Made by a program: the position numbers and the translations under genes. A stretch of DNA of 64,000 nucleotides from an uncultured Acetobacteroides sp. (lineage in GTDB: Bacteria; Bacteroidota; Bacteroidia; Bacteroidales; ZOR0009). The notes below the pieces were generated by a model. It did no database searches, was not told the DNA's origin, and worked only from the letters and a program-made list of their open reading frames with translations. The DNA lies in contig NZ_OY782755.1 in the NCBI RefSeq assembly GCF_963678165.1, forward strand, positions 248,001 through 312,000, in the 5' to 3' direction. Of this stretch, positions 1,485-60,905 are shown piece after piece; within the stretch, counting starts at the first letter, position 1; each line of letters starts with the position of its first letter.

Positions 1485-1735
1485 ATTTCAAGCGTGAAAC
1501 GGCTTTCTGCGCTTTGCGGAAGTGCATTTCAAGAGTGAAATGGCTTTCCGCGCTTTGCGGAAGTGCATTTCAAGGGTGAAATGGCTTTCCGCGCTTTGCG
1601 GAAGTGCATTTCAAGGATGAAATGGCTTTCCGCGGTTTGCGGAAGTGTATTTCAAGCGTGAAACGGCTTTCCGCAGTTTGCGGAAGAGCATTTCAAGGGT
1701 GAAACGGCTTTCCGCAGCCAGCGGAAGCGCATTTG
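1485..1735. repeat. Array A: six tandem 41-bp units, each with two hairpins
   Basis: The phase marker GGCTTTC recurs at 1501, 1542, 1583, 1624, 1665 and 1706, a strict 41-bp period. Each unit holds two inverted repeats: TTCCGC-(5 nt)-GCGGAA and ATTTCA-(4 nt)-TGAAAT. Between units the arms are nearly invariant while the loops vary (GCTTT, GGTTT, AGTTT, AGCCA in the first; AGCG, AGAG, AGGG, AGGA in the second), so the pairing rather than the loop seems to be kept. The array lies between the 3' ends of two convergent genes and contains no plausible gene. Confidence 0.95.
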
Positions 1736-1792
1736 CCCGACCAAACGGCGCTTTCTCCGATAAGCTGGAGGGGTTGGGATCATCCGAATAGA

Positions 1793-1827
1793 AAAAGCAC
1801 CGTAGCTTTTGCTGCTACGGTGCTTTT
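1793..1827. terminator. Bidirectional terminator between convergent genes
   Basis: A perfect 14-bp stem, AAAAGCACCGTAGC / GCTACGGTGCTTTT, with a 7-nt loop. A-rich and T-rich flanks on both sides suit termination in either direction, for the DUF2797 gene and for pepE. Confidence 0.85.
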
Positions 1828-1852
1828 CTATGGCTATCGGCTAAGGTTTTAC

Positions 1853-2548
1853 CTAAAGCTTTAGCGCGTTGATGTCGGTAATCTCGATTGGCGCCTGGCC
1901 GTACTTGAACACCCGGATGGGCTTGGGGCCTATGAGCTGGTATTCGCTGCCCTCTAGGCGGATCATGCAGCCCTCGCGGAGGCCAAGCACGGTCATATCC
2001 TGGTTCAGCGCGATGAACTCCTCAATACGCTGCTCGCGGGTTTCGCCGGCGTGGCCGTCGGGATGGGCGTCGAGGTAGTGGGGGTTAATCTGGAAGGGGA
2101 TTAGGTTGAGCGCGTTGAACGACTCTGGCTCCACAACGGGCATGTCGTTGGTGGTGCGAATGGTGGGGCAGGCCATGTTCGATCCGGCGCTCCACCCGAT
2201 GTAAGGCGTTCCGCATTGCACCTTGCTGCGGATGGCATCAACTAGTCCGTTATTCTGTACGCACTGCAGCAGGCGGAAGGTGTTGCCCCCACCTACAACG
2301 ATAGCCTCAGCCTTTTCTACGGCTTCAACAGCGTTGTCGAAATGGTGAATCGACTTAACCGCTACGCCAACTTCGGCCAGGCGGTTGGCCACCTTGGCCT
2401 CGTACTCGTCGTACGAGAAGGTTACCGCCGCGTAGGGGATGAAGAGCACGCTTTTAACATCGCCCAAGAAGCTGCGGATTTCGTTTTTGGGGTATTCGAG
2501 ATACTGTTCTCCAGCGTTGGTGGAGTTGCTTATTAGGAGTAATCTCAT
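1853..2548 (-). CDS. pepE: Peptidase E, Asp-specific dipeptidase (S51)
   Basis: 231 residues, ATG at 2548. Cytoplasmic serine dipeptidase that cleaves Asp-X dipeptides. The nucleophile is S120 in GWSAGSN, H157 lies in NPHYLD and D135 in TTNDMP. These are the same residue numbers as the catalytic set of the Salmonella enzyme, so the protein is full length and collinear. VVGGGNTFRLL (residues 84-94) is the family's glycine-rich strand-turn. It ends 19 bp downstream of the ThiF-like gene on the same strand and may be co-transcribed with it. Peptide salvage is the expected role. Confidence 0.96.
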   Translation of the reverse strand: MRLLLISNSTNAGEQYLEYPKNEIRSFLGDVKSVLFIPYAAVTFSYDEYEAKVANRLAEVGVAVKSIHHFDNAVEAVEKAEAIVVGGGNTFRLLQCVQNNGLVDAIRSKVQCGTPYIGWSAGSNMACPTIRTTNDMPVVEPESFNALNLIPFQINPHYLDAHPDGHAGETREQRIEEFIALNQDMTVLGLREGCMIRLEGSEYQLIGPKPIRVFKYGQAPIEITDINALKL

Positions 2549-2566
2549 GGTCGGCTTTTATTTAGA

Positions 2567-3262
2567 TTAAAGTTGTTCCGTTTCAAAGGTATTTACGTCG
2601 CACTTTCGGAGGAAGGAGCATGCTTTCCCAAGAAGCGCGTTTATGGCTACCGCTGCCGCTGCGCCTCCCGATATGGAGCTTACGTAGCTGGGGTAGTAGT
2701 AGTCCGACTTGTAGATTGCATCGATGTCGGCAATAGCCTTGCCAATCAGCGGCAGCACATCCTTGCCGGTAGCGCAGAGCAGGTACGAGTGGAAGTTGCA
2801 GCCGGTAGTCCAAACCAGAATCTTGTCTTTCCGTTGGCAGTAGTCCCCAACCAGCTGCAGGATTTCCTTGCTGTAGCTGGCGTAGATCACGATCTCGATA
2901 TCGTCGAGGATATCGTCGATGTTGGAGGCGCGAATCTCCACATTCTTGATGTTGACGCGCTCCACCAGCCGCATGTTGATGAGCTTTTCCTTGATGGCGA
3001 TGGTCTTCAGCTTGCCGATATCGCCCTTGGCAAACAGGCTTCCCTGCGGAAGGGTGAACTCATCGATGGTGCGGTAATCTACCACCTTGATGCTGCTCAC
3101 GCCGGTGGTGATCAGCGCCAGGAGCGTGCTTACCCCAACGCCGGTTAGCCCAACGACGGCTATCCTAGAGCTTTTCAGCTTGGTTATCTCGTCGGGGCCC
3201 AGCCCTTCGAGCTCCATTATACGGGCAAAACGCCGCTTCTCCCAGTCAACAAGTTTATCCAT
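2567..3262 (-). CDS. Stand-alone ThiF/MoeB/HesA-fold protein
   Basis: 231 residues, ATG at 3262. The N-terminus, KRRFARIMELEGLGPDEITKL, and the following SRIAVVGLTGVGVSTLLAL strand-loop-helix (residues ~32-51) match the start of E1-like adenylyltransferase domains. They are followed by VVDYRTID at the end of beta-2. The canonical GxGGxG loop is altered to GLTGVG, and the usual N-L-x-R-Q segment that holds the adenylation arginine reads LPQGSL. The zinc CxxC pairs of MoeB/ThiF are absent. The fold is therefore clear but a canonical adenylation reaction is doubtful. No ThiS- or MoaD-like partner lies nearby; pepE follows on the same strand. Confidence 0.75.
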   Translation of the reverse strand: MDKLVDWEKRRFARIMELEGLGPDEITKLKSSRIAVVGLTGVGVSTLLALITTGVSSIKVVDYRTIDEFTLPQGSLFAKGDIGKLKTIAIKEKLINMRLVERVNIKNVEIRASNIDDILDDIEIVIYASYSKEILQLVGDYCQRKDKILVWTTGCNFHSYLLCATGKDVLPLIGKAIADIDAIYKSDYYYPSYVSSISGGAAAAVAINALLGKACSFLRKCDVNTFETEQL

Positions 3263-3347
3263 GGTGTGTCTGCAAATGCGGTCGAAATTTACGGCTTAAT
3301 TTTGGGTTCCCAAAGATAGGTAAAGCGCGCCTGCGATAAAAGAAAAA

Positions 3348-3367
3348 AGCCTCCAGCATGGGAGGCT
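3348..3367 (-). terminator. Terminator of the sigma/anti-sigma/OMP operon
   Basis: AGCCTCC-(6 nt)-GGAGGCT stem. Read leftward it is followed by TTTTTTCTTTT. It sits 31 bp after the stop codon of the outer-membrane protein gene. Confidence 0.85.
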
Positions 3368-3397
3368 CCTTCGGATTTGTTTATGTTGGGGGTGGTT

Positions 3398-4315
3398 CTA
3401 GAAGTTTAGCGTAACGCCTGCCGCAAAGGGGTAGAGCTCGGGGCCCTTGCCGTCTTGGAACATCTTGGTTAGCGAGTAGGTCGCGTAAACGCCCCAGTCG
3501 TGGTAGCCCAGCTTGGCCATTAAGCTAGCGCGGAAGGGGTTTAGGTAAAACGAATTCCAAACCTTGTCCTTTTTCTTGCCGTGGTCGTCCACAACAATCT
3601 TGGTGTGCGAGTTCAGTAGCAGCGATCCAACAATGCCGAACGAGGCGTACATCGATCTATCGCCACCTCCGTTAACCTCGATGGCTACCGGAACGTTCAG
3701 CCACCAATCGGTTAGCTTGGTTTTTCTGATATTCTTTCCGCTATACTCCTGCATGTTTTTTAGCTCCATAACGTTCATCTTTCCGTTATCTTTTACAAGC
3801 GTAATGTCGTTTTCGAAGCGGTAGTTGTGCCACTCGGTACCAACACCTGCCGTTAGACCCACATACTTGCAGATGGGCTGGCTTACGCTGGTCAGGTTCA
3901 GCACCACGTTGATGGACTTGGAGTGGTTAAGGTCCATCAAGTCGTACCTTTCGCCATTAGCGCCAACTGGTACGCTGGTGCCCCCGTTGCTGTTGAAGTA
4001 GGTGTTGATACCCAGCCCAAAGCCGTCGAGGTGCGAGTGAAACTTCTTATCCTTATTGTGGCGGCCAGTCCAAACCGAGATATCTCCCGATTTGTCCTCG
4101 AATACGTAGATTCCTTTCTTTCCGAGCTTAACCACTACGGTGTCGATACCCTCTTTAATGTTATCTCGTGAGCTGCCATCTCCCGAATTCTTTACGATAA
4201 CGGTATCTACCGATATCTTCTGGTCAACCTTAACGGTATCCTTCTTTTCCTGTGCATTCGATACTCCCGCAAGAAGTAGAGAGGCGGATAGTAGTGCTAA
4301 TAATTGCTTATTCAT
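3398..4315 (-). CDS. Putative outer-membrane beta-barrel protein
   Basis: 305 residues, ATG at 4315. A signal peptide (MNKQLLALLSASLLLAGVSNA|Q) is followed by a polar, K- and D-rich region to about residue 90. After that, alternating aromatic/polar strands continue to a terminal ...YPFAAGVTLNF. A final strand ending in F is typical of Bacteroidota beta-barrels. I do not recognise a named family. It is the last gene of a leftward cluster, 56 bp after the anti-sigma gene, and is followed by a strong terminator. The context suggests it is a target or partner of the ECF sigma system. The role is unknown. Confidence 0.7.
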   Translation of the reverse strand: MNKQLLALLSASLLLAGVSNAQEKKDTVKVDQKISVDTVIVKNSGDGSSRDNIKEGIDTVVVKLGKKGIYVFEDKSGDISVWTGRHNKDKKFHSHLDGFGLGINTYFNSNGGTSVPVGANGERYDLMDLNHSKSINVVLNLTSVSQPICKYVGLTAGVGTEWHNYRFENDITLVKDNGKMNVMELKNMQEYSGKNIRKTKLTDWWLNVPVAIEVNGGGDRSMYASFGIVGSLLLNSHTKIVVDDHGKKKDKVWNSFYLNPFRASLMAKLGYHDWGVYATYSLTKMFQDGKGPELYPFAAGVTLNF

Positions 4316-4371
4316 GGTTTTACGTTTTTTGGGTTTTGTTTTGCAGTATGACGATGAGCTATCTGGGAAAG

Positions 4372-5481
4372 TTACTTGAGCCCATCATTTTTTTTCGAGT
4401 ATTTTAGGTAACCCGCCTCAATGTTCATTGCTACAAGATTTCCGTCTGCATCATACTTGCTCGAGTACTCGATATTGGTTCCAAAAATGGAGTTAAGGCT
4501 GCTGATGGCACGTGCAATAAAGACGCCCTTACGCCTTCCCTTTGCATCGCTTATTTTCTGAGAAATCGTTTCGGATTCCGTTTTGGCCTTTTCCAGAAAA
4601 GCAGCCAAATTCGTCGCAATCTCTTTATTCGAAGAGCTGCCGTCTGCTGTTTTTGCTGATGCCGCTTGATCTGGCTTAATGCTGAGACTTGCAAGGTGGT
4701 CGCCATGCTCCTGTACAACCCTTGCTTCGCCTACAGAGGCGATGTAGGCAATTTCGGAATGCTCTCGCACAACAACAGCCGAGTCCTGATTGGCGCTACT
4801 CGAATTGGTGCCACCATTAATCTTTTGGATGGAGCTCGTTGTGCTCCTTCGGTCGTTGGATTGTTGCGCTAGCTGCTCACCGTTTATGGGTTTGGATGTG
4901 GATGTTGCTTGTCTAATGGCATCGTTCGTGTTCTGCGGAGCAACCACCATTTTAGGCGCAGCATTGTTGCTGAGCTCTTTTACCTGCTCTTCGTGTATCG
5001 TAAAGTAGAAAACAAGAAGCACAGCAGCGGCAATGCCCGAGTATGCCACAAGGTTTCGCTTAAGCCCCGATTTGAAGACATTCTTCTTGAGCTCGTCTTT
5101 GAATGGGCATATTACCTTTTCCTCCTCTAGCTTCGTCTGCTGAAATAGGTCAAAGTCAACCTTAAGCTTCGCATTAGCGGCAATTGACTCATCTAAGATG
5201 ACCTTTTCGGGAGGGGTAATGTCATGCTCCAGCTCGGCAACGCAGAGGTAGTCGAACGAGGAAAGTTCGTATCCGATCTTAGGATCGCGCTTCACCAGAA
5301 TGCTCGAAAAATCCTCGCTGGTAATATTGCAATCGGCGGTTTGCTCCATAAGCAGGTAAAACTCCTCCTCTAAATCGGGATTGGCTGCAAGAAAGCGTAA
5401 AAGCCCTTCAACCAACTCGTCGGAGAGGTTTCCGTCAAAGTAGTCGAGGAAATATTCCTCGTAGTTCTTTCTAGTAATCAT
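4372..5481 (-). CDS. Putative transmembrane anti-sigma factor
   Basis: 369 residues, ATG at 5481, starting 2 bp after the sigma gene ends. The N-terminal ~140 residues are acidic and cytoplasmic-like (NYEEYFLDYFDGNLSDELVEGLLRFL..., a zinc-less anti-sigma-like helical region). One membrane segment follows at about residues 143-165 (NLVAYSGIAAAVLLVFYFTI), then a low-complexity S/N/Q-rich periplasmic region and a C-terminal GIxSLNSIFGTNIEYSSKYD segment. This layout matches Bacteroidota anti-sigma proteins encoded directly behind ECF sigma factors. The homology is not strong enough to call it FecR. Its likely role is to sequester the adjacent sigma factor until an envelope signal arrives. Confidence 0.72.
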   Translation of the reverse strand: MITRKNYEEYFLDYFDGNLSDELVEGLLRFLAANPDLEEEFYLLMEQTADCNITSEDFSSILVKRDPKIGYELSSFDYLCVAELEHDITPPEKVILDESIAANAKLKVDFDLFQQTKLEEEKVICPFKDELKKNVFKSGLKRNLVAYSGIAAAVLLVFYFTIHEEQVKELSNNAAPKMVVAPQNTNDAIRQATSTSKPINGEQLAQQSNDRRSTTSSIQKINGGTNSSSANQDSAVVVREHSEIAYIASVGEARVVQEHGDHLASLSIKPDQAASAKTADGSSSNKEIATNLAAFLEKAKTESETISQKISDAKGRRKGVFIARAISSLNSIFGTNIEYSSKYDADGNLVAMNIEAGYLKYSKKNDGLK

Positions 5482-5483
5482 GG

Positions 5484-14235: not shown

Positions 14236-14976
14236 TCACTTATCTTTCTTCGGGTCCTTGCTATTCTTGGCGCGGGTGGCGCGCTGCTTTTGCAGGGTCA
14301 CGTAGCGGCCAATGATGGTGTTTATCTTTAGCACCAAATCCTTTAGCTCGGGCTTGTTGTAGAATTCGATTTCGCTCTCCACGAAGCGGAAGAGCTTGGC
14401 AACGGCCTCGCCCAGCAGGTCGGCCGCCTGGGCGGTGTTGCTCTTGGCCTCCTGCTCGGCCTCCTTGGTCACCCGGGCAGCCGAGTGCGCCTTGATGTTG
14501 GCTTGGCCCTCCTCGATTTCGGCAACCCACTCCTGGGCCTTCATGGTTTCGATGGCCTGCTTCAGCTCGGGCTCGGTCTTGAGCATGCTCAGGAGGGTGT
14601 CTACGCGGATGGTTTCGTCGGCGTAGGGCATTCGGTCCATATCCCAGCCCACCTTTCGGTAGGTGTTCACGATAAGCTGGCCGGCGTGCGCCCACTCAGC
14701 GTTCTTGCGCGATGCGCATACCTGCGCGTAGTCGCGGAGGTTTGTCAGACCGTTGTCGCGCTGGTCGTCATCGGTCTCTATCAGGCTGCTCATGTCTACC
14801 GTGCTCAGCTTTTCGAGGGTTTTGCGGTAGGTGGCCAGCCTTGCCTCTACTTCCTGAAGGTGGGCGGCCAGGTTGGGCGAGCTCACCTTGAAGGGGGTGG
14901 TTGCCTCAGCGACTTCGGAGGCGAATGCCCCCTTTTCGTTGATGTGCATTTTCTTGAAATAGTATCCGTCTATCAT
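14236..14976 (-). CDS. DUF6261 family protein
   Basis: 246 residues, ATG at 14976. Helical, charged cytoplasmic protein with no signal peptide or membrane segment. The opening MIDGYYFKKMHINEKGAFASE and the later NTYRKVGWDMDRMPYADETIRV, plus a long Ala/Glu/Lys coiled-coil (residues ~145-190), resemble DUF6261, a family I know only from Bacteroidota and without a known function. The C-terminus is very basic (RATRAKNSKDPKKDK), which might contact nucleic acid. It is expressed alone, with a terminator after it and a tandem-repeat array just upstream of its start. Confidence 0.65.
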   Translation of the reverse strand: MIDGYYFKKMHINEKGAFASEVAEATTPFKVSSPNLAAHLQEVEARLATYRKTLEKLSTVDMSSLIETDDDQRDNGLTNLRDYAQVCASRKNAEWAHAGQLIVNTYRKVGWDMDRMPYADETIRVDTLLSMLKTEPELKQAIETMKAQEWVAEIEEGQANIKAHSAARVTKEAEQEAKSNTAQAADLLGEAVAKLFRFVESEIEFYNKPELKDLVLKINTIIGRYVTLQKQRATRAKNSKDPKKDK

Positions 14977-15130
14977 ATTTAAGCTATTTGGGTGTTTTCA
15001 GACCTTAAATATAGCTGAAAATTTAATCTGATGCTCTTTTATGTGTTAAAATCATTAGATAATGCAAAATAATTTGGAGATGATTGCTGGCGATGTTTGG
15101 GGGTCTCTTGGCCGGCGATGGGCGATATGC

Positions 15131-15325
15131 ATGGGGATTTTGTTGTCGCAGGTTTGCGGCAGCCCAATCCCTATGGGGATTTCGTTGCCGCAGAGCTGCA
15201 GCGGCCAAATCCTCATGGTGATTTTGTTGTCGCAGAGTTGCAGCGACCCAATCCCTATGGGGAATTCGTTGCCGCAGAGCTGCAGCAGTCAAATCCTCAT
15301 GGGGAACGGCTTGCCGCAGGTTTTG
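15131..15325. repeat. Array B: five 42-bp units alternating in 84-bp pairs
   Basis: The word ATGGGG or ATGGTG begins at 15131, 15173, 15215, 15257 and 15299, an exact 42-bp period. Two unit types alternate (AATCCCTATGGGGATT and AAATCCTCATGGTGATTT), giving an 84-bp higher-order period. Each unit has an outer inverted repeat around ATCC/GGAT and an inner one: GCCGC...GCGGC in one type, GTCGC...GCGAC in the other, a paired C-to-T and G-to-A change. Because 42 is divisible by three, both strands stay open and encode 14-residue repeats (about LRQPNPYGDFVAAE), probably fortuitously. It lies between mnmH and the DUF6261 gene. Confidence 0.95.
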
Positions 15326-23577: not shown

Positions 23578-23820
23578 AATGTATCTCTGATATACCTCTT
23601 ATGTATCTCCGATATACATCACATGTATCTTTGATATACATACGAAGTATCTTCGATATACATCGAATGTATCTTTGATATACATCGAATGTATCTTTGA
23701 TATACATCGAATGTATCTTTGATATACATCGAATGTATCTTTGATATACATCGAATGTATCTTTGATATACATACGAAGTATCTCCTATATACCTCTAAA
23801 GTATATCGGAGATACATTTT
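23578..23820. repeat. Array C: eleven tandem 22-bp units
   Basis: GTATC, or GTATATC in the last unit, begins at 23581 and then every 22 bp to 23801, eleven units in strict phase. The central units share ATGTATCTTTGATATACAT followed by CGA; the outer units diverge (CTC, CTT, CAC, ACGA linkers). Each has an inverted repeat, ATGTAT...ATACAT, or TATC-(3 nt)-GATA. The last unit is close to the reverse complement of the first. No spacers exist, so it is not CRISPR. The 22-bp unit has no stop in any leftward frame, which makes artificial open frames. Confidence 0.96.
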
Positions 23821-32243: not shown

Positions 32244-32251
32244 TATCTTTG
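32244..32251 (+). promoter_or_regulatory. -7 element of the riboswitch transcript
   Basis: TATCTTTG matches TAnnTTTG exactly. The predicted start (~32258) lies just upstream of the aptamer. No convincing -33 box is seen. Confidence 0.5.
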
Positions 32252-32269
32252 GGGAAATCGATGGTTTTG

Positions 32270-32425
32270 TGTGAGACCGATGCGTCTCAGCAAATTAAAA
32301 GGGAATCAGGTGTGAGTCCTGAACAGTTCCCGCTGCTGTAATCTCGAGAAAGAATCTAGGCAATCTGAGCCACTGTGAAAACGGGAAGGCGCCTACGATG
32401 TGAGAAAGTCAGAAGACCTGCCAGC
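32270..32425 (+). ncRNA. Cobalamin riboswitch without a downstream gene
   Basis: All the conserved blocks are present in order: AAAAGGGAA, GGTGTGAGTCC, CAGTTCCCGCTGCTGTAAT, GCCACTGTG, CGGGAAGGCGCC and the B12-box-like AGTCAGAAGACCTGCC (ends 32422). The aptamer therefore looks intact. It is transcribed rightward, but the next gene, frr, lies on the opposite strand and a strong terminator follows at 32503-32553. The next rightward gene starts at 35584. The unit would give an RNA of about 295 nt. A 27-codon frame at 32428-32511 opens 5 nt after the aptamer, but its end is inside the terminator stem. In other bacteria B12 riboswitches can control non-coding or antisense RNAs; that is possible here, as is a relic of a lost transporter gene. 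Confidence 0.93.
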
Positions 32426-32502
32426 CGATGTTCGATAAAAGCTTTCGGGTAAAAAGCGAGGATCCTTCCACACTCCTCATTCATTCCCCCGAACAAAAAA
32501 AG

Positions 32503-41127: not shown

Positions 41128-41268
41128 CAATGCGTATTGTATCCCTTAATTTACAGCGGGCAAGTATAGCGAAATATTCTCTACACTTTTTGACGATTAA
41201 AGTAAGCTAACAGTAAGGCTGGTGGGCGTTGGGGGCGCGGGTGGCGGCCTGTGCACCCCAACAGCGGC

Positions 41269-41499
41269 GATGTATGACTTAACATTGATGATGTTCGACT
41301 CAACATCGAGGATGTTTGCTCCAACAACGGCGATGTACGCTCCAACATTGCCGATGTTCGACCCAACATCATCGATGTTCGCTTCAACATCAACGATGTT
41401 TGCTTCAACATCAACGATGTTTGCTTCAACATTGGCGATGTTCGTTCCAACATCAACGATGTTCGCTTCAACATCGGAGATGTTCGTCTTAATATTGCT
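41269..41499. repeat. Array D: eleven tandem 21-bp units
   Basis: GATG begins at 41269, 41290, 41311 and every 21 bp to 41479. The consensus is GATGTTCGCTTCAACATC plus three variable linker bases. Each unit is an inverted repeat, GATGTT-(6 nt)-AACATC. Several changed arms stay pairable through G-T (AACATT, AATATT). Linkers vary (AAC, ATC, GAG, GCC, GGC, GGA) while arms are kept. 21 is a multiple of three, so a heptapeptide frame (MFASTST-like) stays open on one strand. It sits in a divergent promoter gap between the DUF5686 gene and the gene at 41614. Confidence 0.96.
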
Positions 41500-41613: not shown

Positions 41614-41970
41614 ATGAAGTATCAAATTCCGAGAGAACCCCAAAAGATCGGGGAGCTTGGCGATACAGTTGTCGCCAAGAACACGGCCGATGGAGCTACC
41701 TCCGTCATTGCGCCGCTGGTAAAGGACGAGGTTAAGGTGTCGATCGCCAACCTTAAGGCGTACTCCAAGCGCGCCGAGGAGCTTCGCCGTCAGAGCGAGG
41801 AGGCCTACGAGCTGCGCGACAACGAGGCCAAGAAGGTGACCCAGTTCCTGCGCTCGGTTCGCGACGTGGTGAACGCCAACTTCCCCGACTAGCCCAAGAA
41901 GCTTACCGAGTACGGCTTCGAGATTAACGAGGTTGCCCCTAAGGCCAAGAAGAACGACGACAAGAAGTAG
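41614..41970 (+). pseudogene. Small charged coiled-coil protein, interrupted by an in-frame amber codon
   Basis: The frame from ATG 41614 gives 92 residues, MKYQIPREPQKIGELGDTV..., and stops at TAG 41890-41892. The same frame then continues as clear coding sequence for 25 codons (PKKLTEYGFEINEVAPKAKKNDDKK) to a second TAG at 41968. I read this as a 118-codon gene with one internal amber codon, most simply from CAG or AAG by one change. The protein is helical, with SKRAEELRRQSEEAYELRDNEAKK; I recognise no named family. The truncated form may still be made. Readthrough, a fresh nonsense mutation or a sequencing error are the options. A terminator follows. Confidence 0.7.
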
Positions 41971-48962: not shown

Positions 48963-51764
48963 ATGAGTTGGTTGCGTAAATTTAACAAGTTGTCTATTCG
49001 ATCGAAGATGCATCTTTACATAGGTGCTTCGGTGGCATTAATAATGCTGATCTCATTCCTCTACTTTATTATCTCGTTACGGATCAATACTCGGGAGAAC
49101 GCGACCCTTATGGTCGACGAACAGGTAAAAGGGTATTCGGCACAGATCCAACGGGTCACCAATCAGGGTTTCAGCTTCTGCGAATCGCTGGCATCTTCTG
49201 TGGTTTACATGTTCGATCATAGCGTTTCCAATCGCGAAACGCTACTTCAGCAGTCCCTGCTCAACATTTCGAAGAACAACCAGCAGTTTAAGTGCATTTT
49301 TGTATCGTTAGAGCATTCGGCCATTACGCCCGGCTACAATAAGGCCTCAGGGCGCCGTACATTCCTTACCGTTCCTTCGTCGAACATGCCGGTTATGACA
49401 GTCGACAAGGATATGGACTCGTTTGACGCTAATGGGCACTACTATCAGGTAAAGAGCATCGGTAAATCCGATGTAAAAGAGCCCTACTACTACAACTACT
49501 ACAACAATAGCAGCCAGGAGCTGCTCATTACAACGCTTGATTGCCCCGTTAAGTATAATGGAACATCAGTAGGTGTTGCCGGAGTTGATATTGGCATCGA
49601 CGAATACCAGAAAATTGTCGATCAGGTTAAGATTTTCCCAGGAACATCCGCCTTTTTGGTGTCGTCTAAAGGGTTTATTGCCGCGCATACCGATAAAAAG
49701 CTAGTTGGTAAAACCTTCGATAACGTTTTTGGCGAAAAGAACAGCGAGCTTCAGCTCGATAAGATGCTTTCCTCGTCCGATATCACCAAAACCTACATCG
49801 AAATCGATGGTACGAGCTACTATTCGGTGGTTGTTCCCATTACCATGGGCGAAAGAGGCACCCGTTGGGCGTTGGGGGTAACCATTCCTACCAGCGAGAT
49901 CTTTGCGCAGTCGCGTAAGTCGGTATTGTTTGCCATTCTGGTGTGCCTACTTGGCCTAATCGTTACCACCTTTGTCATTAACTACCTGGCAAAGGCCATA
50001 ACCAAGCCGCTGGAGGATGTAACGCAGTCCATAAAGAAGCTATCCACCGGTGAGGTTAGCGAGCAGGAGAAGCTCAACATCAAAACCGGCGACGAGATGG
50101 AAGAAATTGCCGGATCGCTAAACATGCTGGTTGATGGGCTGGGCCGAACCGCCAAGTTTGCCCAAGAAATTGGGAATGGAAACCTAAATGCCAACCATCA
50201 GCTACTCGGCGAGAAGGATGTACTCGGCATTTCGCTCGAAGAAATGCGCAGCAGCCTGATTCGCGCCAACGAAGTAGAGGATGAGCGCAAAAAGGAGGAA
50301 GATAAAACGCGTTGGGCCAACCAAGGCTATGCAAACTTTGCCGAGCTGCTGCGCCTTAACAACAGTAACCTTAAGGAGCTCTCGTTTTCCATCGTAAGCA
50401 ACCTCGTAAAGTACCTGGATATCAACCAAGGAGGCATGTTTATCCTAAATGGCGAAGATGAGTCGGATCGTTTCCTCGAAATGACCGCCTGCTTTGCCTA
50501 TAACCGCCGCAAGATGATGGAAAAACGCTTCGAAGTGGGCGAAGGCCTAGTGGGGCGCTGCTTTGTCGAGGGCGAAACCATATTTTTGCTCGAAATCCCC
50601 GACAGCTACATCTCCATCACCTCCGGTTTGGGCGATACCACTCCCAAATGCCTGCTGCTGGTTCCGCTAAAGATCAACAACGAGGTCAACGGCGTGATCG
50701 AGCTCGCCTCGCTGACGCCAATTGACGACTATAAGGTGAAATTTGTCGAAAAGATCGCCGAAAGCATCGCCTCGACCCTCGCCTCCGTCCGCATAAACAT
50801 CCACACCGCCGAGCTGCTCGATCAAACCCGCTCCCAAGCCGAGGAGATGGCCGCTCAGGAAGAGGAGATGCGCCAGAATTTGGAGGAGCTTCAGTCCACG
50901 CAGGAGGAGATGGCCCGCGTTCAGGAGGAGCAAAAGATCGCGCAAGAAGAGCTCTTCAAGGAAAAATCGATGTTTGCCAACTTTTTGGACACGGTTGTCG
51001 AGTATGTTTACTTCAAAGATCTGCAAAGCCGCTTCATTCGCGTAAGCAAATCGCTTTTAGGGCTACATAAAGTTAAGGACGACTCGGAGCTTTTGGGTAA
51101 ATCAGACTTCGACCTCTTCGGCGGCGAGCATTCGCAAAAGGCGTACAACGATGAGCAAACCATCATCCGTACCGGCCAAGCCATTTACGGCATGGTCGAG
51201 CGCGAAGATCACAACGATGGCTCCGTAACCTGGGTAGAAACCAGCAAAATGCCGCTGAAAGATCTCAATGGGCAAATCATTGGTACCTTTGGCATATCGA
51301 AGGATATCTCAAACATCAAGAATCTGGAGGCCAAGCTCTCCTTCGAGCGCAACCTGCTCAATAACTTCCTCGATACGTCCTCCGATTACATCCACTTTAA
51401 GGATGAAAATGGCCGATTCCTAAGAGCGAACAGGCTTAAGTACGAGCGTCACGGGCTAAAATCAGAGGAAGAAATCATCGGGAAGAGCGATAAGGACTTC
51501 TTTGGCGAAAAGTATACCGTCGAAACCGATGCCGAGGAGCAGGAAATCATCCGTACCGGCAAGCCCATCCTAAATAGGGTGGAATGCCGTACCGATTCTG
51601 CCGGCAACAAGCGCTGGTTCTCCATCAACAAGATGCCGCTTCGCAACGAAGATGGAGCAACCATTGGCACCTGGGGTTATACCCGCGATGTAACTGAGCT
51701 CAAGGAGCTCGAGCTGAAGCAAAACGGCCAGAATTCCGAAAGCGATAAGGCCGATTTAAACTAG
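48963..51764 (+). CDS. Cache-HAMP-GAF-PAS-PAS sensory protein without output domain (copy 2)
   Basis: 933 residues from ATG 48963 (MSWLRKFNKLSIRSKMHLYIG). ATG 48933 is also in frame but would sit at the predicted transcript start. The architecture parallels copy 1: Cache sensor between two membrane segments, HAMP (ITKPLEDVTQSIKKLSTGEVSEQEK), GAF, the near-identical coiled-coil AEEMAAQEEEMRQNLEELQSTQEEMAR, and then two PAS/PAC units instead of one. PAS 1 starts at FANFLDTVVEYVYFKDLQSRFIRVSKS and PAS 2 at LLNNFLDTSSDYIHFKDENGRFL. The two PAS units resemble each other, suggesting an internal duplication. No kinase or cyclase domain follows; the C-terminus is a polar tail. Confidence 0.85.
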   Translation: MSWLRKFNKLSIRSKMHLYIGASVALIMLISFLYFIISLRINTRENATLMVDEQVKGYSAQIQRVTNQGFSFCESLASSVVYMFDHSVSNRETLLQQSLLNISKNNQQFKCIFVSLEHSAITPGYNKASGRRTFLTVPSSNMPVMTVDKDMDSFDANGHYYQVKSIGKSDVKEPYYYNYYNNSSQELLITTLDCPVKYNGTSVGVAGVDIGIDEYQKIVDQVKIFPGTSAFLVSSKGFIAAHTDKKLVGKTFDNVFGEKNSELQLDKMLSSSDITKTYIEIDGTSYYSVVVPITMGERGTRWALGVTIPTSEIFAQSRKSVLFAILVCLLGLIVTTFVINYLAKAITKPLEDVTQSIKKLSTGEVSEQEKLNIKTGDEMEEIAGSLNMLVDGLGRTAKFAQEIGNGNLNANHQLLGEKDVLGISLEEMRSSLIRANEVEDERKKEEDKTRWANQGYANFAELLRLNNSNLKELSFSIVSNLVKYLDINQGGMFILNGEDESDRFLEMTACFAYNRRKMMEKRFEVGEGLVGRCFVEGETIFLLEIPDSYISITSGLGDTTPKCLLLVPLKINNEVNGVIELASLTPIDDYKVKFVEKIAESIASTLASVRINIHTAELLDQTRSQAEEMAAQEEEMRQNLEELQSTQEEMARVQEEQKIAQEELFKEKSMFANFLDTVVEYVYFKDLQSRFIRVSKSLLGLHKVKDDSELLGKSDFDLFGGEHSQKAYNDEQTIIRTGQAIYGMVEREDHNDGSVTWVETSKMPLKDLNGQIIGTFGISKDISNIKNLEAKLSFERNLLNNFLDTSSDYIHFKDENGRFLRANRLKYERHGLKSEEEIIGKSDKDFFGEKYTVETDAEEQEIIRTGKPILNRVECRTDSAGNKRWFSINKMPLRNEDGATIGTWGYTRDVTELKELELKQNGQNSESDKADLN

Positions 51765-51880
51765 GATATTCCGGTAACGCATAAAAGCATAGGCAACTCT
51801 ATCTGTCGGGTTTCGACATCTAAGCCGGTGGGCTCTGATGAAAAACGGGAACGGCAGGAGGAGTTGCCTTTTTTTGCGCC

Positions 51881-52681
51881 AGCACATCAGCTACGGATAA
51901 AAGCGAAGGAGAACGCAACAGCCTGCTACACGTCTGCAACCCCCACGCGGCAAAACAGGACAAAAGAGGAGTTGCCCGTAGACCATTCCGACTTGTAGCA
52001 TGCCACCGCAACGGCAGATTTTACCTCGTAGAGGTTAAACATGCGCGTCATAACCAGTTTTTCCCGTTTTCAATCAAAAAAATGGTTCGATAACGTTTTA
52101 GGAGGGGATTGTAGATTTGAAACCACTCTTCCAACGAAGCCCGAAGGGCTTTAACTTTAATAACCCCGAGTGAAACTCGGGGAATTTGATCGTGAGATGG
52201 AAACAACCCAGAATGGGTTGAATGTCTTCGCTAAAAACGGGTAAGAGGCAGCAGAATACTGGTATAAATCCAATCGTACCCACGCTTTTCCTTCCTCAGC
52301 ATATCAGCTACAAATAAAAACGAAGAAGAACGCAACAGCCTGCTACACGCTTGCAACCGCCACGCAGCAAAACAGGTCAGAAAGAGAGTTGCCCGTAGGG
52401 CATTCCGACCTGTAGCATGCCACCACAACGGCAGATTTTACCTCGTAGAGGTTAAACATGCGCGTCATAACCAGTTTTTCCCGTTTTCAATCAAAAAAAT
52501 GGTTCGATAACGTTTTAGGAGGGGATTGTAGATTTGAAACCACTCTTCCAACGAAGCCCGAAGGGCTTTAACTTTAATAACCCCGAGTGAAACTCGGGGA
52601 ATTTGATCGAGAGATGGAAACAACCCCAACGGGGTTGAATGTCTTCGCTGAAAAGCGGGAAGAAAGTCGAGAATACTAGTA
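51881..52681. repeat. Two direct copies of a 384-bp element
   Basis: Copies at 51881-52264 and 52298-52681, offset by exactly 417 bp, nearly identical from ~52014 to ~52240 and diverging more outside. Each contains several short perfect hairpins: CCCCGAGT-GAA-ACTCGGGG, AGCCC-GA-AGGGCT, and AACCC(AGA/CAA...)GGGTT that differs between copies but stays paired (AACCCAGAATGGGTT versus AACCCCAACGGGGTT). This is the pattern of a mobile or REP-like repeated element of Bacteroidota. No transposase gene lies in it. It fills the non-coding stretch after the second sensory gene. Confidence 0.85.
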
Positions 52682-52803
52682 AAACCACTTTAGTTTCTCA
52701 GAGATTTCACGTTTAAAATATGAATAAAAACGATTATTGGAAGAACGACCAACCAACGGCGGACAAACTTATCAGAGTAGGATAACGTTCTTCCGTAAAC
52801 ACT

Positions 52804-53040
52804 ATGGCGAAGCCATACCAGACTGGCAGGAATTCTGTTCGAGCGAGCGGAGCTGCTACAACGCCAATTAGCGTAACAGCGATGAAAGGATTAGAAACAA
52901 TTATTTTAGATGGCGACATTCCACCGCGACCGAGCGAGTTAATTCGTGCCAAGGGTTTTTTGGTTCTTTTTGCCCTTCAAAAAGAACAGATAAGAAGAGG
53001 GAATTCTCTTTACAAAGCCCTAACCTCTGCTAAATGCTGA
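52804..53040 (+). other. Doubtful 78-codon frame in repeat-rich DNA
   Basis: The frame from ATG 52804 encodes MAKPYQTGRNSVRASGAATT..., with a last half (GDIPPRPSELIRAKGFLVLF) that I associate with repeat-derived hypothetical proteins. A frame on the other strand is equally open. There is no promoter, partner gene or domain. I think it is part of the repeated element, not a gene. Confidence 0.35.
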
Positions 53041-53095
53041 AGCTATATTTTAAAAGGCGAAATCCCTCGGGTAAAACCCATTCCTAAAACTGTTT

Positions 53096-53176
53096 CAATA
53101 CGAGAGCATCGCATCTCTACCAGCCCGAATCAGCGTCGCAGGGGTAGAGACTCATTGCATGTATCTCGTTGTATTG
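53096..53176. repeat. Imperfect long inverted repeat
   Basis: Left arm CAATACGAGAGCATCGCATC then TCTAC (53096-53120); right arm GTAGAGA...GCATGTATCTCGTTGTATTG (53144-53176). Arms of 25-33 bp with a ~23-bp loop. Looks like a small MITE-like or structured-RNA element. No gene inside. Confidence 0.6.
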
Positions 53177-53179
53177 TAG

Positions 53180-53845
53180 AATCTGGATTAAAAGCGAAAT
53201 ACCAGACAAAACCCTACCTAAGAGTTGAAAAACCAACCTAATTCTTTATAAAAACAGCCCCAATGCACCACGAAATCCCGCTTACGATTTGCAAAACCTC
53301 GATAAATATTTACAAAAATCATTCAAAAATCTACGTGAAATGCCCTTTAGATCGGCAAAAACCTGCCTAAAATCGGCAAAATCAAGGCAAATACTTATAA
53401 AAACAGCCTCAATATCGATGTGAACGCCTCAATGCACCACGAAATCCCCCTTAGGATTTGAAAAACTAAGGTCGAACTTTACAAAAACCAACCAAAAATC
53501 TACGTGAAATGCCCTTTAGATCGCCAAAATCCTGCCTAAGAATCGAAAAACTAAGGTTATTATTTGCAATATCTGCCCTAAGATTAGTGTGAACTCCCCC
53601 TACGATCGCTAAAATCTCGCTTACGATTGGTAAAAACGCGATAATTATTTACAAAAACCTTCCAAATAGCTGTGTGAATCGTCTTTTAGAACGACGAAAT
53701 CCTGCATAAAATTTGAAAAAGCTAAGGAAAAAATTGGCAAAACCGCCCCTAAGATTGGTGTAAATCAGGCTAAGAACTGATAGAAACAAGCCTAAGATTG
53801 GCGGAAACTAGGTTTTGTAGCGCCAATACCACCTACAATCTTTTA
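53180..53845. repeat. Array F: about 28 degenerate 20-23-bp modules in 85-bp groups
   Basis: The sequence parses into modules starting GAAA or AAAA with a consensus near RAAA-N-CCTGCCTAA-RATYGGY, of 20, 20, 21, 22 or 23 bp, mean about 21. The word GTGAA (GTAAA once) marks every fourth module at 53335, 53420, 53504, 53589, 53674 and 53760: steps of 84-86 bp. Two of these super-units are almost the same (53331 and 53500, 169 bp apart). The array occupies the whole gap before the nuclease gene at 53915. I see no open reading frame that would explain it. Confidence 0.85.
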
Positions 53846-53914
53846 GAAGAAAAGTAGAAATAGCTAAACCTCGATAAGGATATTTCTATACTTTAGTGCC
53901 GCTTAACAAAGTCG

Positions 53915-56426: not shown

Positions 56427-56434
56427 AAAAAGTA

Positions 56435-56874: not shown

Positions 56875-58242
56875 CTAGCACGCAGGTAGGCTAATCGTGA
56901 ACTCCGAGCCAACATTTACCTCCGACTTTACCGTTATTGTCCCCTGATGCAGCGCAATAATCTGCGAGGTGAGCGCTAAGCCCAAGCCATGCCCGTCAAC
57001 TTTTAGGTTCGAAGGCACCCGATGGAAGGGTTGGAAGATATTCTTGAGTTCCTCCTCGGGAATACCAATGCCATTATCCCTAAAAGTGATGCACACCATC
57101 TTGCTATCCTTGTAGCTCAGCGAAACCGCCACCGCATTATCGGGCGAAAACTTGCAGGCGTTCGACATAAGGTTGAAGAAGGCGGTTTTAAGCAGCTGCT
57201 CCTCGCCGGCAACGTAGAGCTCGTCCTCGTTTCCGGGGAGGTTTGCGAACTCGAGGTGTACCTTACTGCCCGGATATGCCCTAGAGTATTCGGCAATCGA
57301 GGTCATCACCAGCTCATCCATGCGAATTCGGTTGCTGGCAAGGTTCTTCGAGTCGATATTCGTCTTGGCAAGGTCCAGCAGCTTCGTCGAAAGGTTGTTT
57401 AGGTTGAGGATCTCCTCCTTGAGCGAGGTGAGCATCTGCTGCAGTTCGGCGTTTTCGGGGTGATTCATCATCATCATCTCAATTTCGCTGAGCATGATGG
57501 TCAGCGGAGTCCTAAACTCGTGAGAGGCATGCGATACGAAGCTCTTTTGAAGGGTAAACGCCAGCTCCAGCCGCTCGAGCATGCGGTTAAACGTGGATGA
57601 CAGCTCCGAAATCTCATCGCGCCCATTCCCCTCGTTCAGCCGTTGGTTCAGGTTTTTCTCCGTGATGAGGTTTACCCGCGCCACCACCTTCGACATGGGC
57701 TGGAGCGCACGCCGTGCAAAGTACCATCCTCCCAGAAACGACAGCAGAATACCCAGTAGCGTAGAGATTATCAGCGAAATTCTCAGGGTGGCGAGCCTCT
57801 TTTTACCATGCTTATCGATGGCGGATACGAACACCGCATAGGAATTTGCCCTATTCCCGTACTCTATACCGATGGCTTCGTAGCTATTCCTGAGTTGCAG
57901 AGATAGGTGCTTAACCTTGAATATCCGTAGCGCAAGCGCCGGGGTGATGTCCCGATCTTCCGCCTGGTCGTTGTACACCAGCTTTCCTTTTCTATCGAAG
58001 ATCATTACCTGCTCGTGGAAGAGTATGGAGGCGGTGGTGTCCAGCCGTCTTATCAGCTCCTTATTGGTATCCACCACATCGGTGGCGATGGAAGCCATAA
58101 TTAGCGCGCGATCTTGCAGGCGGTTGTAGAAATCGCTTCGGCGCGATTGCTCCGACGAGATGTAAATGGTTGCCGAGAAGACAATAAGAATGGCGCTCAC
58201 GATGGCGGCAAACTGGATGGCGAGCTTACTGCGGATGTTCAT
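56875..58242 (-). CDS. Sensor histidine kinase
   Basis: 455 residues, ATG at 58242, 1 bp after the response regulator gene ends. Two membrane segments (~10-28 and ~155-175) bracket a small periplasmic domain. HAMP is at ~176-230 (RRALQPMSKVVARVNLI...). The phospho-acceptor H241 is in SHASHEFRTPLTIM (HisKA). The catalytic domain has N box LMSNACKFSPDN, G1 FRDNGIGIPEEE and G2 GHGLGLALTSQIIA. All catalytic boxes are intact. Stimulus unknown. Confidence 0.97.
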   Translation of the reverse strand: MNIRSKLAIQFAAIVSAILIVFSATIYISSEQSRRSDFYNRLQDRALIMASIATDVVDTNKELIRRLDTTASILFHEQVMIFDRKGKLVYNDQAEDRDITPALALRIFKVKHLSLQLRNSYEAIGIEYGNRANSYAVFVSAIDKHGKKRLATLRISLIISTLLGILLSFLGGWYFARRALQPMSKVVARVNLITEKNLNQRLNEGNGRDEISELSSTFNRMLERLELAFTLQKSFVSHASHEFRTPLTIMLSEIEMMMMNHPENAELQQMLTSLKEEILNLNNLSTKLLDLAKTNIDSKNLASNRIRMDELVMTSIAEYSRAYPGSKVHLEFANLPGNEDELYVAGEEQLLKTAFFNLMSNACKFSPDNAVAVSLSYKDSKMVCITFRDNGIGIPEEELKNIFQPFHRVPSNLKVDGHGLGLALTSQIIALHQGTITVKSEVNVGSEFTISLPAC

Positions 58243-58243
58243 G

Positions 58244-58936
58244 CTATGCTTCCTTTAGCACATAGCCCAAACCAATTTGGGTATGGATAAGCTTGCTGTC
58301 GAAACCCTTGTCCACCTTGTTGCGGAGGTAGTTCATGTACACCTCTATGACGTTGGTGCCGGTGTCGAAGGTGATATTCCAGATCTTTTCGGCGATATCT
58401 ACCTTTGAAACTACCTTATTCTTGTTCTCCAGCAGGTACTGTAGCAGTAGAAATTCCTTTGCGGTGAGCTCTATGGCCTTGCCAGCTCGGGTAACGATCT
58501 TCGAATCGGGGTCGAGCTCCAGATCGGCAGCGCGAAGCACCCTAGATGGCGCGGCGGTAACGGCGCTATTGCGCTTCAGAAAGACGCGAATGCGCGCCAG
58601 CAGCTCCTTCATCTCGAACGGTTTGGCAATATAGTCATCGGCACCAGAGTCGAACCCTTCGAGCTTATCGTCGATGGAGTCTAATGCGGTTAGAAAGAGG
58701 ATGGGCACGTTGGTGTTTCGCTCGCGGATGGCTCGGCACACCTGGTAGCCATTCTCGTGGGGCAGGTTGATGTCGAGGATAATCAAGTCGTACTTGTGCT
58801 GGATGCCCAGCCTACGCCCCATCATGCCATCGTAGGCAACCTCTACCGAGTACCCGCTGGTCTCTAGTCCCTTTCGAATGAGGTCGGCAACTTTCACTTC
58901 GTCTTCAACCACCAGTATCTTTACGGCTGTTTCCAT
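58244..58936 (-). CDS. OmpR-type response regulator
   Basis: 230 residues, ATG at 58936. Receiver domain with the acidic pocket EDE (11-13) and phosphoacceptor D55 in YDLIILDINLPHENG. K near 105 is in DYIAKPFEMKELLARI. The C-terminal winged helix is ~130-228 (IELTAKEFLLLQYLLENKNKVVSK, then VIEVYMNYLRNKVDKG). It controls unknown promoters, probably with its cognate kinase encoded next on the strand. A small frame overlaps its start by 16 nt. Confidence 0.97.
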   Translation of the reverse strand: METAVKILVVEDEVKVADLIRKGLETSGYSVEVAYDGMMGRRLGIQHKYDLIILDINLPHENGYQVCRAIRERNTNVPILFLTALDSIDDKLEGFDSGADDYIAKPFEMKELLARIRVFLKRNSAVTAAPSRVLRAADLELDPDSKIVTRAGKAIELTAKEFLLLQYLLENKNKVVSKVDIAEKIWNITFDTGTNVIEVYMNYLRNKVDKGFDSKLIHTQIGLGYVLKEA

Positions 58937-59088
58937 CGCTTCTCCAAATAAATGCCTGCTAAGGTAGCATATTCTCCTTCGATATCAGAGCGGAAACCGT
59001 ACGTTTTTTGGTGATGCTCATCGCTGAAAGGCTTGTAGATCATCAGATGCCTTCGCATTTCGGCTTTGAAGCGCTTGCCGAACTCCAT
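58921..59088 (-). CDS. Possible small protein upstream of and overlapping the response regulator
   Basis: 55 residues, MEFGKRFKAEMRRHLMIYKP..., from ATG 59088. Codon choice looks coding, and the frame overlaps the response regulator start by 16 nt, which could couple their translation. I recognise no family. A longer frame from 59226 would begin in the tyrS terminator and is unlikely. Confidence 0.4.
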   Translation of the reverse strand: MEFGKRFKAEMRRHLMIYKPFSDEHHQKTYGFRSDIEGEYATLAGIYLEKRWKQP

Positions 59089-59215
59089 GTTTTGGATTTC
59101 CGCATCTTCTTTGGGGAGCAGTTGCGGGGCAAATGGGCGTCGGCCGAGAATGCTTGGCGTTTTAGGCGGGTGAGGCGCTTGCCCGTGGGCGGGGATGCGT
59201 ACGTCGGAAAAAGCA

Positions 59216-59249
59216 GCAGAGGGCATCCCGCCTCCGGAATGCCCTCTGC
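59216..59249 (-). terminator. Terminator of tyrS
   Basis: GCAGAGGGCAT-(12 nt)-ATGCCCTCTGC. Read leftward it is followed by TGCTTTTTCC, 22 bp after the tyrS stop codon. Confidence 0.85.
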
Positions 59250-59271
59250 AAAGTCTATCCTTAAAAAGAAA

Positions 59272-60564
59272 TTACTGCGCCTTGATGATGAAATAGTTCT
59301 TCTTGCCCTTCTGTACCAGCAGGAACTTGCCGTTGAGCAGCAGATCCGACCCGATGGTGGCATCAACCGCATCAACCTTATTCTTGTTGATGCTTACGCC
59401 GCCGCCCTGGATCATCTTGCGAGCTTCGCCCTTGGATGGGAACACGGCGGTGGTGGTGGCCAGCAGCTCGATAACGTTGGCACCGGCGTCGAGTATCGAC
59501 TTCTCGATCTCGAACTGGGGTACGCCCTCGAATACCGACAGGAAGGTGTCCTCGTCGAGCTTAACCAGCGCATCGGCGGTGGCGTTGCCGAAGAGGATTT
59601 GCGAGGCCTCCACTGCGGCGTTGTAGTCCTCCTCGGAGTGAACCATGGTGGTTACGTCCTTGGCTAGGCGCTTTTGGAGAATGCGCAGGTGTGGCGCTTC
59701 GTGGTGCTCGGCTACGAGTTGCGCGTACTCTTCCTTGGTGATGAAGGTGAATATCTTGAGGTACTTCTCGGCATCCTCGTCGGATACGTTGAGCCAGAAC
59801 TGGTAGAACTTGTAGGGCGAGGTGTAGGCCTTCGATAGCCAGATGTTGCCGCTCTCGGTTTTGCCGAATTTGCCGCCATCGGCCTTGGTGATTAGCGGAC
59901 AGGTGAGCGCGTAGGCTTCGCCTCCAGTCTTGCGGCGGATCAGCTCGGTGCCGGTGGTGATGTTGCCCCACTGGTCCGATCCCCCCATCTGCAGTTTACA
60001 GCCCTTGTGCTGGTTGAGGTAGAGGAAGTCGTACCCCTGAACCAGCTGGTAGGTGAACTCGGTGAACGACATACCGTCGCGAGTCTCGCCCGTAAGGCGC
60101 TTCTTTACCGAATCCTTGCTCATCATATAGTTTACGGTGATGTGCTTGCCCACGTCGCGGATGAAATCGAGGAACGAAAATTCCTTCATCCAGTCGTAGT
60201 TGTTTACCAGCTCGGCGCGGTTGGCTGCATCGCTCTCGAAGTCGAGGAACTTGGCCAGCTGTGCCTTGATGCACTCCTGGTTGTGGCGAAGGGCTGCCTC
60301 GTCGAGCAGGTTGCGCTCTACCGACTTACCCGATGGGTCGCCAATCATGCCGGTTGCACCGCCCACAAGAGCGATGGGCCTATGGCCTGCACGCTGCAGG
60401 TGGCGCAGCATCATCACGCCCACAAGGTGGCCGATGTGCAGCGAGTCGGCAGTTGGGTCGATGCCCACGTAGGCTGATACCATCTCTTTGGCAAGTAGCT
60501 CTTCTGTTCCGGGCATCATATCGTGGATCATGCCCCTCCACGAAAGTTCTTCTATAAAGTTCAT
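59272..60564 (-). CDS. tyrS: Tyrosyl-tRNA synthetase
   Basis: 430 residues, ATG at 60564. Class I synthetase charging tRNA-Tyr. The HIGH motif is in [18 protein letters not shown] and the KMSKS equivalent is KFGKTESG. An S4 RNA-binding domain ends the protein ([20 protein letters not shown]). Length fits bacterial TyrS. The upstream region has no T-box; array E lies behind its start. Confidence 0.98.
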
Positions 60565-60697
60565 CTGAGTAATATTTTCTTAGGTGGATGCGCGAGGTGC
60601 CCTCCTGCGAGCGGCATCCGGCATTGTGCTCCCTATTAATGAGTAAAACTGGAGCAAAGATAGTAAAATGGATCGACTTCGAGAGGTGGCGCTGGGG

Positions 60698-60905
60698 CCA
60701 TCTGCGATGCGTAGAACGCCAGCATGGGGACGCAGAAGGCATCCAACCCCCTTTGATTGTCTCCCCGGAGTTCCGTTGGGATCATCCAACCCCCTTTGAT
60801 TGGTCCGCCGGAGTTCCGTTGGAGCCATCTAACCCCCTTTGGTTGCCTCCCCATAGTTCCGTTGAAGACATCCAACCCCTTTTGATGGGCTCACCAGTTC
60901 TCTGC
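60698..60905. repeat. Array E: four 43-bp units plus a degenerate one
   Basis: The word ATC(C/T)AACCCC begins at 60741, 60784, 60827 and 60870, an exact 43-bp period; a weaker relative starts near 60698. Each of the first three units has CCAAC or CTAAC paired with a distal GTTGG or GTTGA and a GGAGTTCC core (TAGTTCC in the third). The array sits between tyrS and the CvpA gene. Units degrade toward both ends. Confidence 0.9.

Follow-up and report, generated by a model that had tools for sequence, protein, structure and literature searches.

Six gaps between genes in a 64,000-nucleotide stretch of an uncultured Acetobacteroides sp. of the order Bacteroidales (contig NZ_OY782755.1, positions 248,001 to 312,000; hereafter the window) carry tandem arrays, and these arrays (A to F), the length rule that they obey and the genes that accompany them are the subject of the present analysis. 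All six were recovered where the initial annotation had placed them (Table 1), together with the super-period of 84 or 85 bp ascribed to arrays B and F; in array F the autocorrelation peaks at 85, 64 and 21 bp (0.47, 0.41 and 0.41, respectively, vs 0.28 expected). A gene lying directly downstream of its own array is termed its owner, while arrays with no recognised owner beside them are termed ownerless.

Table 1. Tandem arrays of the window, in order of position, with the genes assigned to them
Feature	Position in window	Strand	Properties	Setting
Array A	1485..1734		41 bp x6.1, dyadic	ownerless; convergent gap between DUF2797 and peptidase S51 genes
DUF6261 (PF19775) gene	14236..14976	(-)	246 aa; Pfam E 2.6e-17; Lys-rich C-terminal tail	owner of array B
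Array B	15130..15305		42 bp x4.2, 84-bp super-period, whole-unit dyad	154 bp upstream of DUF6261 gene 14236..14976
Array C	23578..23817		22-bp units, ~11 by eye (9.4 by Tandem Repeats Finder, TRF)	ownerless; between two polyprenyl synthetase genes
Array D	41259..41486		21 bp x10.9	128 bp upstream of gene 41614..41892
Small gene	41614..41892	(+)	92 aa; no Pfam match above threshold	possible owner of array D
Array F	~53180..53860		degenerate ~21-bp units, 85-bp super-period	next gene an exonuclease with GIY-YIG match
Array E	60740..60886		43 bp x3.4, dyadic	ownerless; 176 bp upstream of tyrosyl-tRNA synthetase

The length rule was surveyed in the genome of the window (G000; 4.30 Mb, single contig) and in two congeners (G001 and G002), the family being represented by these three genomes. 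Application of TRF to the window and 40 evenly spaced 20-kb stretches of G000 (864 kb in total; arrays of at least 80 bp with a score of at least 100) gave 63 arrays, 57 of which have a period of 21, 22, 41, 42 or 43 bp (20, 3, 7, 24 and 3 arrays, respectively), while a first-order Markov copy of the same sample gave none. The clustering at ~21 and ~42 bp suspected from the window is thus borne out by a sharply peaked histogram with a clear excess at these lengths, the lack of which the initial annotation had named as a refutation. The same classes account for 15 of 15 arrays in G001 (220 kb) and 3 of 4 in G002 (160 kb), and super-periods lie near multiples of 21 bp. In a larger sample (1.05 of 4.30 Mb of G000), 65 arrays were counted, which extrapolates to ~270 genome-wide. 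As placed by a home-made gene finder, 53 of the 63 arrays lie outside predicted genes and the other 10 overlap predicted genes consisting mostly of the array itself. An origin as coding tandem repeats was rejected, as the mean third-position share in the best open frame is 0.38 and 3 of 41 tested arrays have no open frame.

Beyond the genus, periods of 20-23 or 40-44 bp were found in 11 of 22 arrays from 80 named loci around tyrosyl-tRNA synthetase, mostly of Bacteroidales (1.34 Mb; 2 of the 11 inside genes), in 1 of 8 arrays from 20 stretches of other families of the order, and in none of 5 arrays from 20 class- and phylum-level genomes represented by a single 20-kb stretch each. Three genomes chosen because an array had been seen in each follow the rule as well, viz. 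Tannerella forsythia (9/11 arrays), an uncultured Parabacteroides (5/5) and Draconibacterium aestuarii (3/4). The length rule is therefore real and genome-wide, and recurs in Tannerella, Parabacteroides and Draconibacterium.

The initial annotation had supposed that something other than sequence goes with the length, and such a correlate is found in the gene directly downstream of many arrays. Clustering of the neighbours of 120 arrays returned two larger families that always have the array upstream, namely DUF6261 (PF19775; 13 genes, one from T. forsythia) and small Cro/C1-type helix-turn-helix (HTH) proteins (7 genes). Counting from the gene side, in 1.63 Mb of genus sequence picked independently of arrays, an array stands directly upstream of 13 of 14 DUF6261 genes (all of 41 or 42 bp, none downstream, one separated from its gene by an insertion of ~1.6 kb) and of 7 of 9 HTH-family genes (21 or 42 bp). 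Against a background of 78 in 1161 genus genes with an array within 600 bp upstream, the respective p values are 7e-15 and 2e-7 with genes treated as independent; with close pairs (identity >0.6; four DUF6261, two HTH) counted once, the linkage holds for 9/10 DUF6261 lineages (p 3e-10) and 6/7 HTH lineages (p 6e-7). The three genes of these families without an array show weaker lags, at 43 bp for DUF6261 (0.58) and at 21/42 bp (0.62) and 21 bp (0.52) for the HTH genes. The family of the small gene beside array D behaves similarly: each of its 3 members in the sampled sequence is preceded by an array at a distance of 600 bp or less, two of these members occupying one and the same locus in G000 and G001.

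All six HTH-family proteins scanned match PF13443, and a search of PDB with the profile of the family gave a weak match to an HTH protein of the XRE family (8q86, E 8.5e-4), a code that occurs in a paper on the SaPI2 repressor Stl2 (PMC11846896). An invariant CTPN..EW.P motif follows the HTH in nine aligned members (e.g. L016:14300-14653 (-) and L007:19123-19473 (+)). Searches of PADLOC, PHROGs and NCBIfam gave weak matches only for the owners. DUF6261 was not found in viral contigs or plasmids with the members tried (one DUF6261 and one HTH member gave no plasmid match by tblastn); six relatives of the HTH family occur in viral contigs, none with a 21- or 42-bp array, one contig (L274) having a 23-bp x2.6 repeat. 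Two further families are not claimed as owners, viz. one of ~160 aa with the array on either side (2 upstream and 2 downstream, of 5) and one of ~311 aa with a CarboxypepD-like domain and an array upstream in 3 of 8. As the Pfam scan covered only ~50 different array neighbours, additional owner families may have been missed.

DUF6261 is present in 14 of 49 genomes searched, with 38, 33 and 18 copies in the genus, 36 in a Parabacteroides metagenome-assembled genome, 15 in T. forsythia, 8 in Draconibacterium and 1-7 in eight others; it is absent from 35, and none was found in 14 control genomes. Of 77 matches in seven genomes, 13 were sampled before their upstream content was seen, and the strongest upstream lag (range 15-60 bp) is 41, 42 or 43 in 13/13, with values of 0.54-0.98. 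In the same genomes, a top lag of 41-43 occurs in 40 of 338 control windows upstream of genes, 15 of which reach 0.54, and in genomes without DUF6261 in 28 of 492 windows, 3 reaching 0.54. Apart from these, 22-bp arrays occur at L100:4185-4296, L270:10803-10883 (G125; 1 DUF6261 copy) and L056:13621-13709 (G127; 0 copies), two of the three being dyadic at p<.05; with so few DUF6261 copies, another owner family may exist there.

The internal structure of the units differs between the length classes. Inverted repeats had been reported for arrays A to E; by a whole-unit dyad test they are upheld in A, B and E (p.036,.0005 and.027), and fail in C (.34) and D (.11). In the G000 sample, 12 of 34 arrays of 40-44 bp are dyadic at p<.05 (Fisher 4e-10) vs 1 of 23 arrays of 20-23 bp, and the property follows the owner, since 13 of 24 DUF6261-owned arrays are dyadic (Fisher 1e-13) vs 0 of 7 HTH-owned ones. 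Tests based on the longest stem or on folding energy were weaker (9/57 and 16/57 units). Furthermore, 7 of 24 units of 42 bp conceal a half period of 21 bp. With 40-44-bp units often dyadic, some 42-bp units half-periodic and 20-23-bp units direct, 21 bp is the common quantum, either as a direct unit or as half of a larger one; and since no period near 31-32 or 52-53 bp occurs among the 63 G000 arrays, it is this length rather than any whole number of helical turns that is favoured.

This bears directly on phased binding by a nucleoid protein, as proposed in the initial annotation, and on the wider reading that helically phased repeats are selected by DNA curvature or by a single nucleoid protein tolerant of sequence. 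Lengths of 21 and 42 bp do correspond to two and four turns, and units have a weak 10.5-bp excess of AA/TT and purines. Nevertheless, this excess is as strong or nearly so at 7 bp (with shuffles that do not preserve dinucleotides), no phased A/T signal is present (W, p.73; WW, p.51), the other whole-turn periods are missing and the linkage is specific to particular gene families. A-tract curvature was rejected on the same W, WW, AA/TT and purine signals, and this reading is regarded as highly improbable.

With respect to sequence, the arrays had been described as unrelated to each other, which holds only in part. Blastn places 91 arrays of the three congeneric genomes in 66 families, 16 of which have at least two members (orthologous pairs included), and some arrays are dispersed copies of each other, so that the shared sequence families that the initial annotation had named as its second refutation do occur in part. 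Among 106 orthologous intergenic intervals of G000 and G001, an array is present in both in 9, in G000 only in 4, in G001 only in 2 and in neither in 91; the period is identical in 7 of the 9 shared intervals and the unit sequence still recognisably related in 6 (p.01 or less). Likeness between arrays follows orthology of the owners, the mean unit similarity being 0.74 for four orthologous owner pairs (protein identity >0.6) and 0.42 for 80 pairs with identity below 0.3, the latter equal to the shuffled value of 0.42.

Under a neutral explanation, the arrays would be minisatellites that change in mutational increments of 21 bp, through slippage, staggered nicks or repair, with the gene linkage being secondary. 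The super-periods near multiples of 21, the turnover of array sequence between species and the substitution pattern (no strand- or A-specific bias; transitions 0.62 vs 0.49 in intergenic DNA) are in keeping with it. However, the two-copy tandem duplications found outside arrays (19 in 380 kb of intergenic DNA) do not favour 21 bp, 16 of them being of 11-15 bp, which speaks against the generic fixed-step copying or repair that the initial annotation had also considered. As this explanation further leaves unaccounted for both the 13/14 linkage and the association of DUF6261 with 41-42 bp vs HTH with 21 bp, it is considered improbable.

The most likely cause of the length rule is a set of protein-array pairs. 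On balance, the arrays are probably iterated recognition sites of array-specific proteins, in which the protein family sets the step and the individual paralogue sets the sequence. The product of an owner gene (DUF6261, the small Cro/C1-type HTH protein and perhaps further small families) would bind the units of the array directly upstream cooperatively and side by side, and may thereby regulate its own gene. The fold of the HTH family would impose direct units of 21 bp and that of DUF6261 units of 41-43 bp, i.e. two 21-bp halves that are often dyad-related, while the private sequence specificity of each paralogue would leave the arrays of different owners with only length in common. If fold sets step and paralogue sets sequence, orthologous owners are expected to have related arrays and distant paralogues arrays at shuffled similarity, as is seen. 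A further point in favour is that units vary by substitution with their register kept: in a banded alignment, gap events per mismatch amount to 71/2179 between adjacent units vs 203/3418 in orthologous intergenic DNA devoid of arrays (odds ratio 0.55, p 1e-5), a deficit that may partly reflect bias of TRF detection toward gap-free arrays.

Alternatively, control could operate at the RNA level, the array being transcribed as the leader of its owner and acting as a repeated hairpin or protein-binding RNA. Such a role would suit both the upstream position of the array in every DUF6261 and HTH case where an array was found and the frequent dyad symmetry of 41-43-bp units. It is difficult to reconcile with the HTH being a DNA-binding fold, the HTH-owned units not being dyadic, the lack of any Rfam family at the window arrays and the preference of ownerless arrays for convergent gaps (described below), and little probability is assigned to it.

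Several observations weigh against pairing of proteins with arrays as the explanation. No recognised owner stands beside 68 of 94 genus arrays, and exactly one owner was found in 6 of 10 array families and two in none, which is a trend only (permutation p 0.18). Across the full set of 91 owner pairs, the correlation of array similarity with protein identity is weak and not significant (Spearman 0.17, p 0.11). Outside the genus, five further, shorter DUF6261 regions from five genomes comprise two clear and three unclear cases (G055, 0.45 at 43; G125, 0.49 at 42 and 24; G073, 0.51 at 17, with 42 third), the latter including two single-copy genomes; the resulting total of 15 of 18 sampled DUF6261 genes with a clear 41-43-bp period upstream depends on a limit of 0.54 that was fixed after the first 13 values had been seen. 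DUF6261 copy number correlates with array density over 49 genomes (rho 0.74), some of which had been selected because they carry arrays; among the nine genomes with arrays, the correlation is not significant (rho 0.3, p 0.43). As regards structure, DUF6261 has no known fold, a profile search of PDB gave only E 0.1 or worse, and a single-sequence model of the window protein (pLDDT, the predicted local distance difference test score, 43) was unusable for fold search.

Of the gaps with an ownerless array, 17 of 61 lie between convergent genes, vs 60 of 514 array-free gaps of 100-1000 bp (odds ratio 2.9, p.001). Such an enrichment is more in line with dispersed copies that have settled where they do no harm than with control of the promoters of other genes. 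In terms of protein-array pairs, they would be dispersed copies or secondary sites. Array A provides a possible instance, as its family occupies four places in G000, one of which (L002) is 106 bp upstream of a DUF6261 gene at 3.787 Mb, ~0.76 Mb from array A if the contig is circular; ownerless array A may thereby find a place in the protein-array scheme. Another member (L005), likewise in a convergent gap, is short, with about three units of 41 bp.

Dispersal is also the basis of the main rival, in which the arrays are selfish, REP-like (repetitive extragenic palindromic) elements copied to new intergenic places by the owner or a partner, the owner serving to spread or protect them. In 8 of 10 pairs of dispersed family members examined, homology stops within ~66 bp of the array edge and the flanks are unrelated, and of the L039 family, three members are present in G000 while the search of the two congeners gave none; these facts and the convergent-gap bias favour such copying. 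On the other hand, the owners match no Pfam transposase family, the two families searched genome-wide occupy only three and four places, several ownerless arrays stand at an unchanged place in G001, and 163 of 181 array flanks are unmatched in the rest of the sampled part of their genome, which indicates that there are no shared element ends. A selfish origin is thus thought unlikely, albeit a serious competitor.

The arrangement can be compared with several known systems. In plasmid iterons and centromere arrays (Rep-iteron, ParR-parC, TubR), the gene of a small DNA-binding protein has a tandem array of binding sites directly upstream, with units of about two helical turns. The present arrays resemble these in position and unit length, with binding here presumed, and differ in being chromosomal, in having up to 38 DUF6261 copies per genome and in that every examined array has its own sequence. 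A DNA-binding family linked to an upstream array is represented here by the HTH proteins (7/9, PF13443), while DUF6261 has the array and may bind DNA. REP sequences and bacterial interspersed mosaic elements (BIME) with their REP-associated tyrosine transposase (RAYT) likewise combine repeat arrays scattered over extragenic DNA with a gene family linked to them, but the owners here are not Y1 transposases and many array sequences obey one length rule. Matches to PF01797 number 7, 3 and 0 in G000, G001 and G002, yet G002 has arrays, and the owners match PF19775 or PF13443.

Porphyromonas gingivalis is also a member of the Bacteroidales. Its BrickBuilt element is described as a minisatellite inside a miniature inverted-repeat transposable element (MITE), with intergenic tandem 23-nt arrays (19 in one genome) of a single sequence family flanked by leader, tail and inverted ends (PMC4596501). 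The likeness lies in the intergenic tandem arrays; unlike BrickBuilt as portrayed there (PMC4596501), array flanks in the present sample share no element, and a MITE of this type is set aside on the flank counts given above. Archaeal Borgs are reported to have pervasive, independent and fast-evolving tandem repeats of many sequences, of which 43-65% lie in open reading frames (ORFs) and whose units are A-rich (PMC9879509). Many independent, fast-evolving array sequences are common to both, but, compared with that account (PMC9879509), the arrays here are mostly intergenic, follow the 21/42-bp rule and have linked gene families. Clustered regularly interspaced short palindromic repeats (CRISPR) do not apply, as the units abut head to tail with no spacers; copying by a diversity-generating or other reverse transcriptase was also set aside, with no RVT_1 match in the three congeners and no A-specific substitution bias. 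Literature searches found no paper on this array system, though they did not name DUF6261, and novelty in print is not established.

Pairing of genes with arrays turns a puzzling non-coding length rule into a testable association and provides a first functional lead for DUF6261, a Pfam family of unknown function. Should binding be confirmed, the many natural pairs would lend themselves to studies of how the sequence specificity of a DNA-binding fold can change with its geometry preserved, as well as of the role of repeated arrays on a bacterial chromosome. A more far-reaching and rather doubtful possibility is that some Bacteroidales have a chromosomal addressing system of dozens of paralogous DUF6261/HTH protein-array pairs, in which nucleoprotein filaments form on private arrays, the fold acts as the ruler (21 or 42 bp), the paralogue determines the sequence and extra copies of each array provide docking sites by which distant loci are connected. 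If true, DUF6261 would gain a first function, and bacteria a counterpart of satellite DNA that is constrained in length.

In G001, position and period of array A are kept; the ortholog of array B is 42 bp x10.2 with a unit identity of 0.83; the alignment is gap-free inside array C, with the core GTATNTNNNATATAC largely preserved; the family of array D is common to the G001 array L149:157-447; and the gap equivalent to that of array E has a 42-bp array. A second, two-unit copy of the array C family at L043:1373-1523 includes part of the left flank (79%), from which it appears that some dispersal takes flanking DNA along.

Between the ORF ending at 51764 and array F, a segment of ~417 bp is tandemly duplicated (51880-52681, 92% matches), and an interspersed repeat of ~250-400 bp follows at 52701-53180. 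The latter also occurs at L010, L025, L159, L167, L172, L024, L041 and others, the genus sample containing about twelve additional copies, complete or partial, at 74-87% identity, three of them within 1 kb of an array. As a common flanking element it was rejected, being near array F and three other arrays with most copies away from arrays. Elsewhere, G002 has 14-bp arrays (L152:1-99 and 668-763), a length that two-copy duplications of the genus often have as well; at L018:10939-11204, a 96-bp repeat comprises three tRNA-Lys (ttt) genes in tandem; and the window has a Cobalamin riboswitch at 32245-32439 (+) (RF00174, 92.7 bits).

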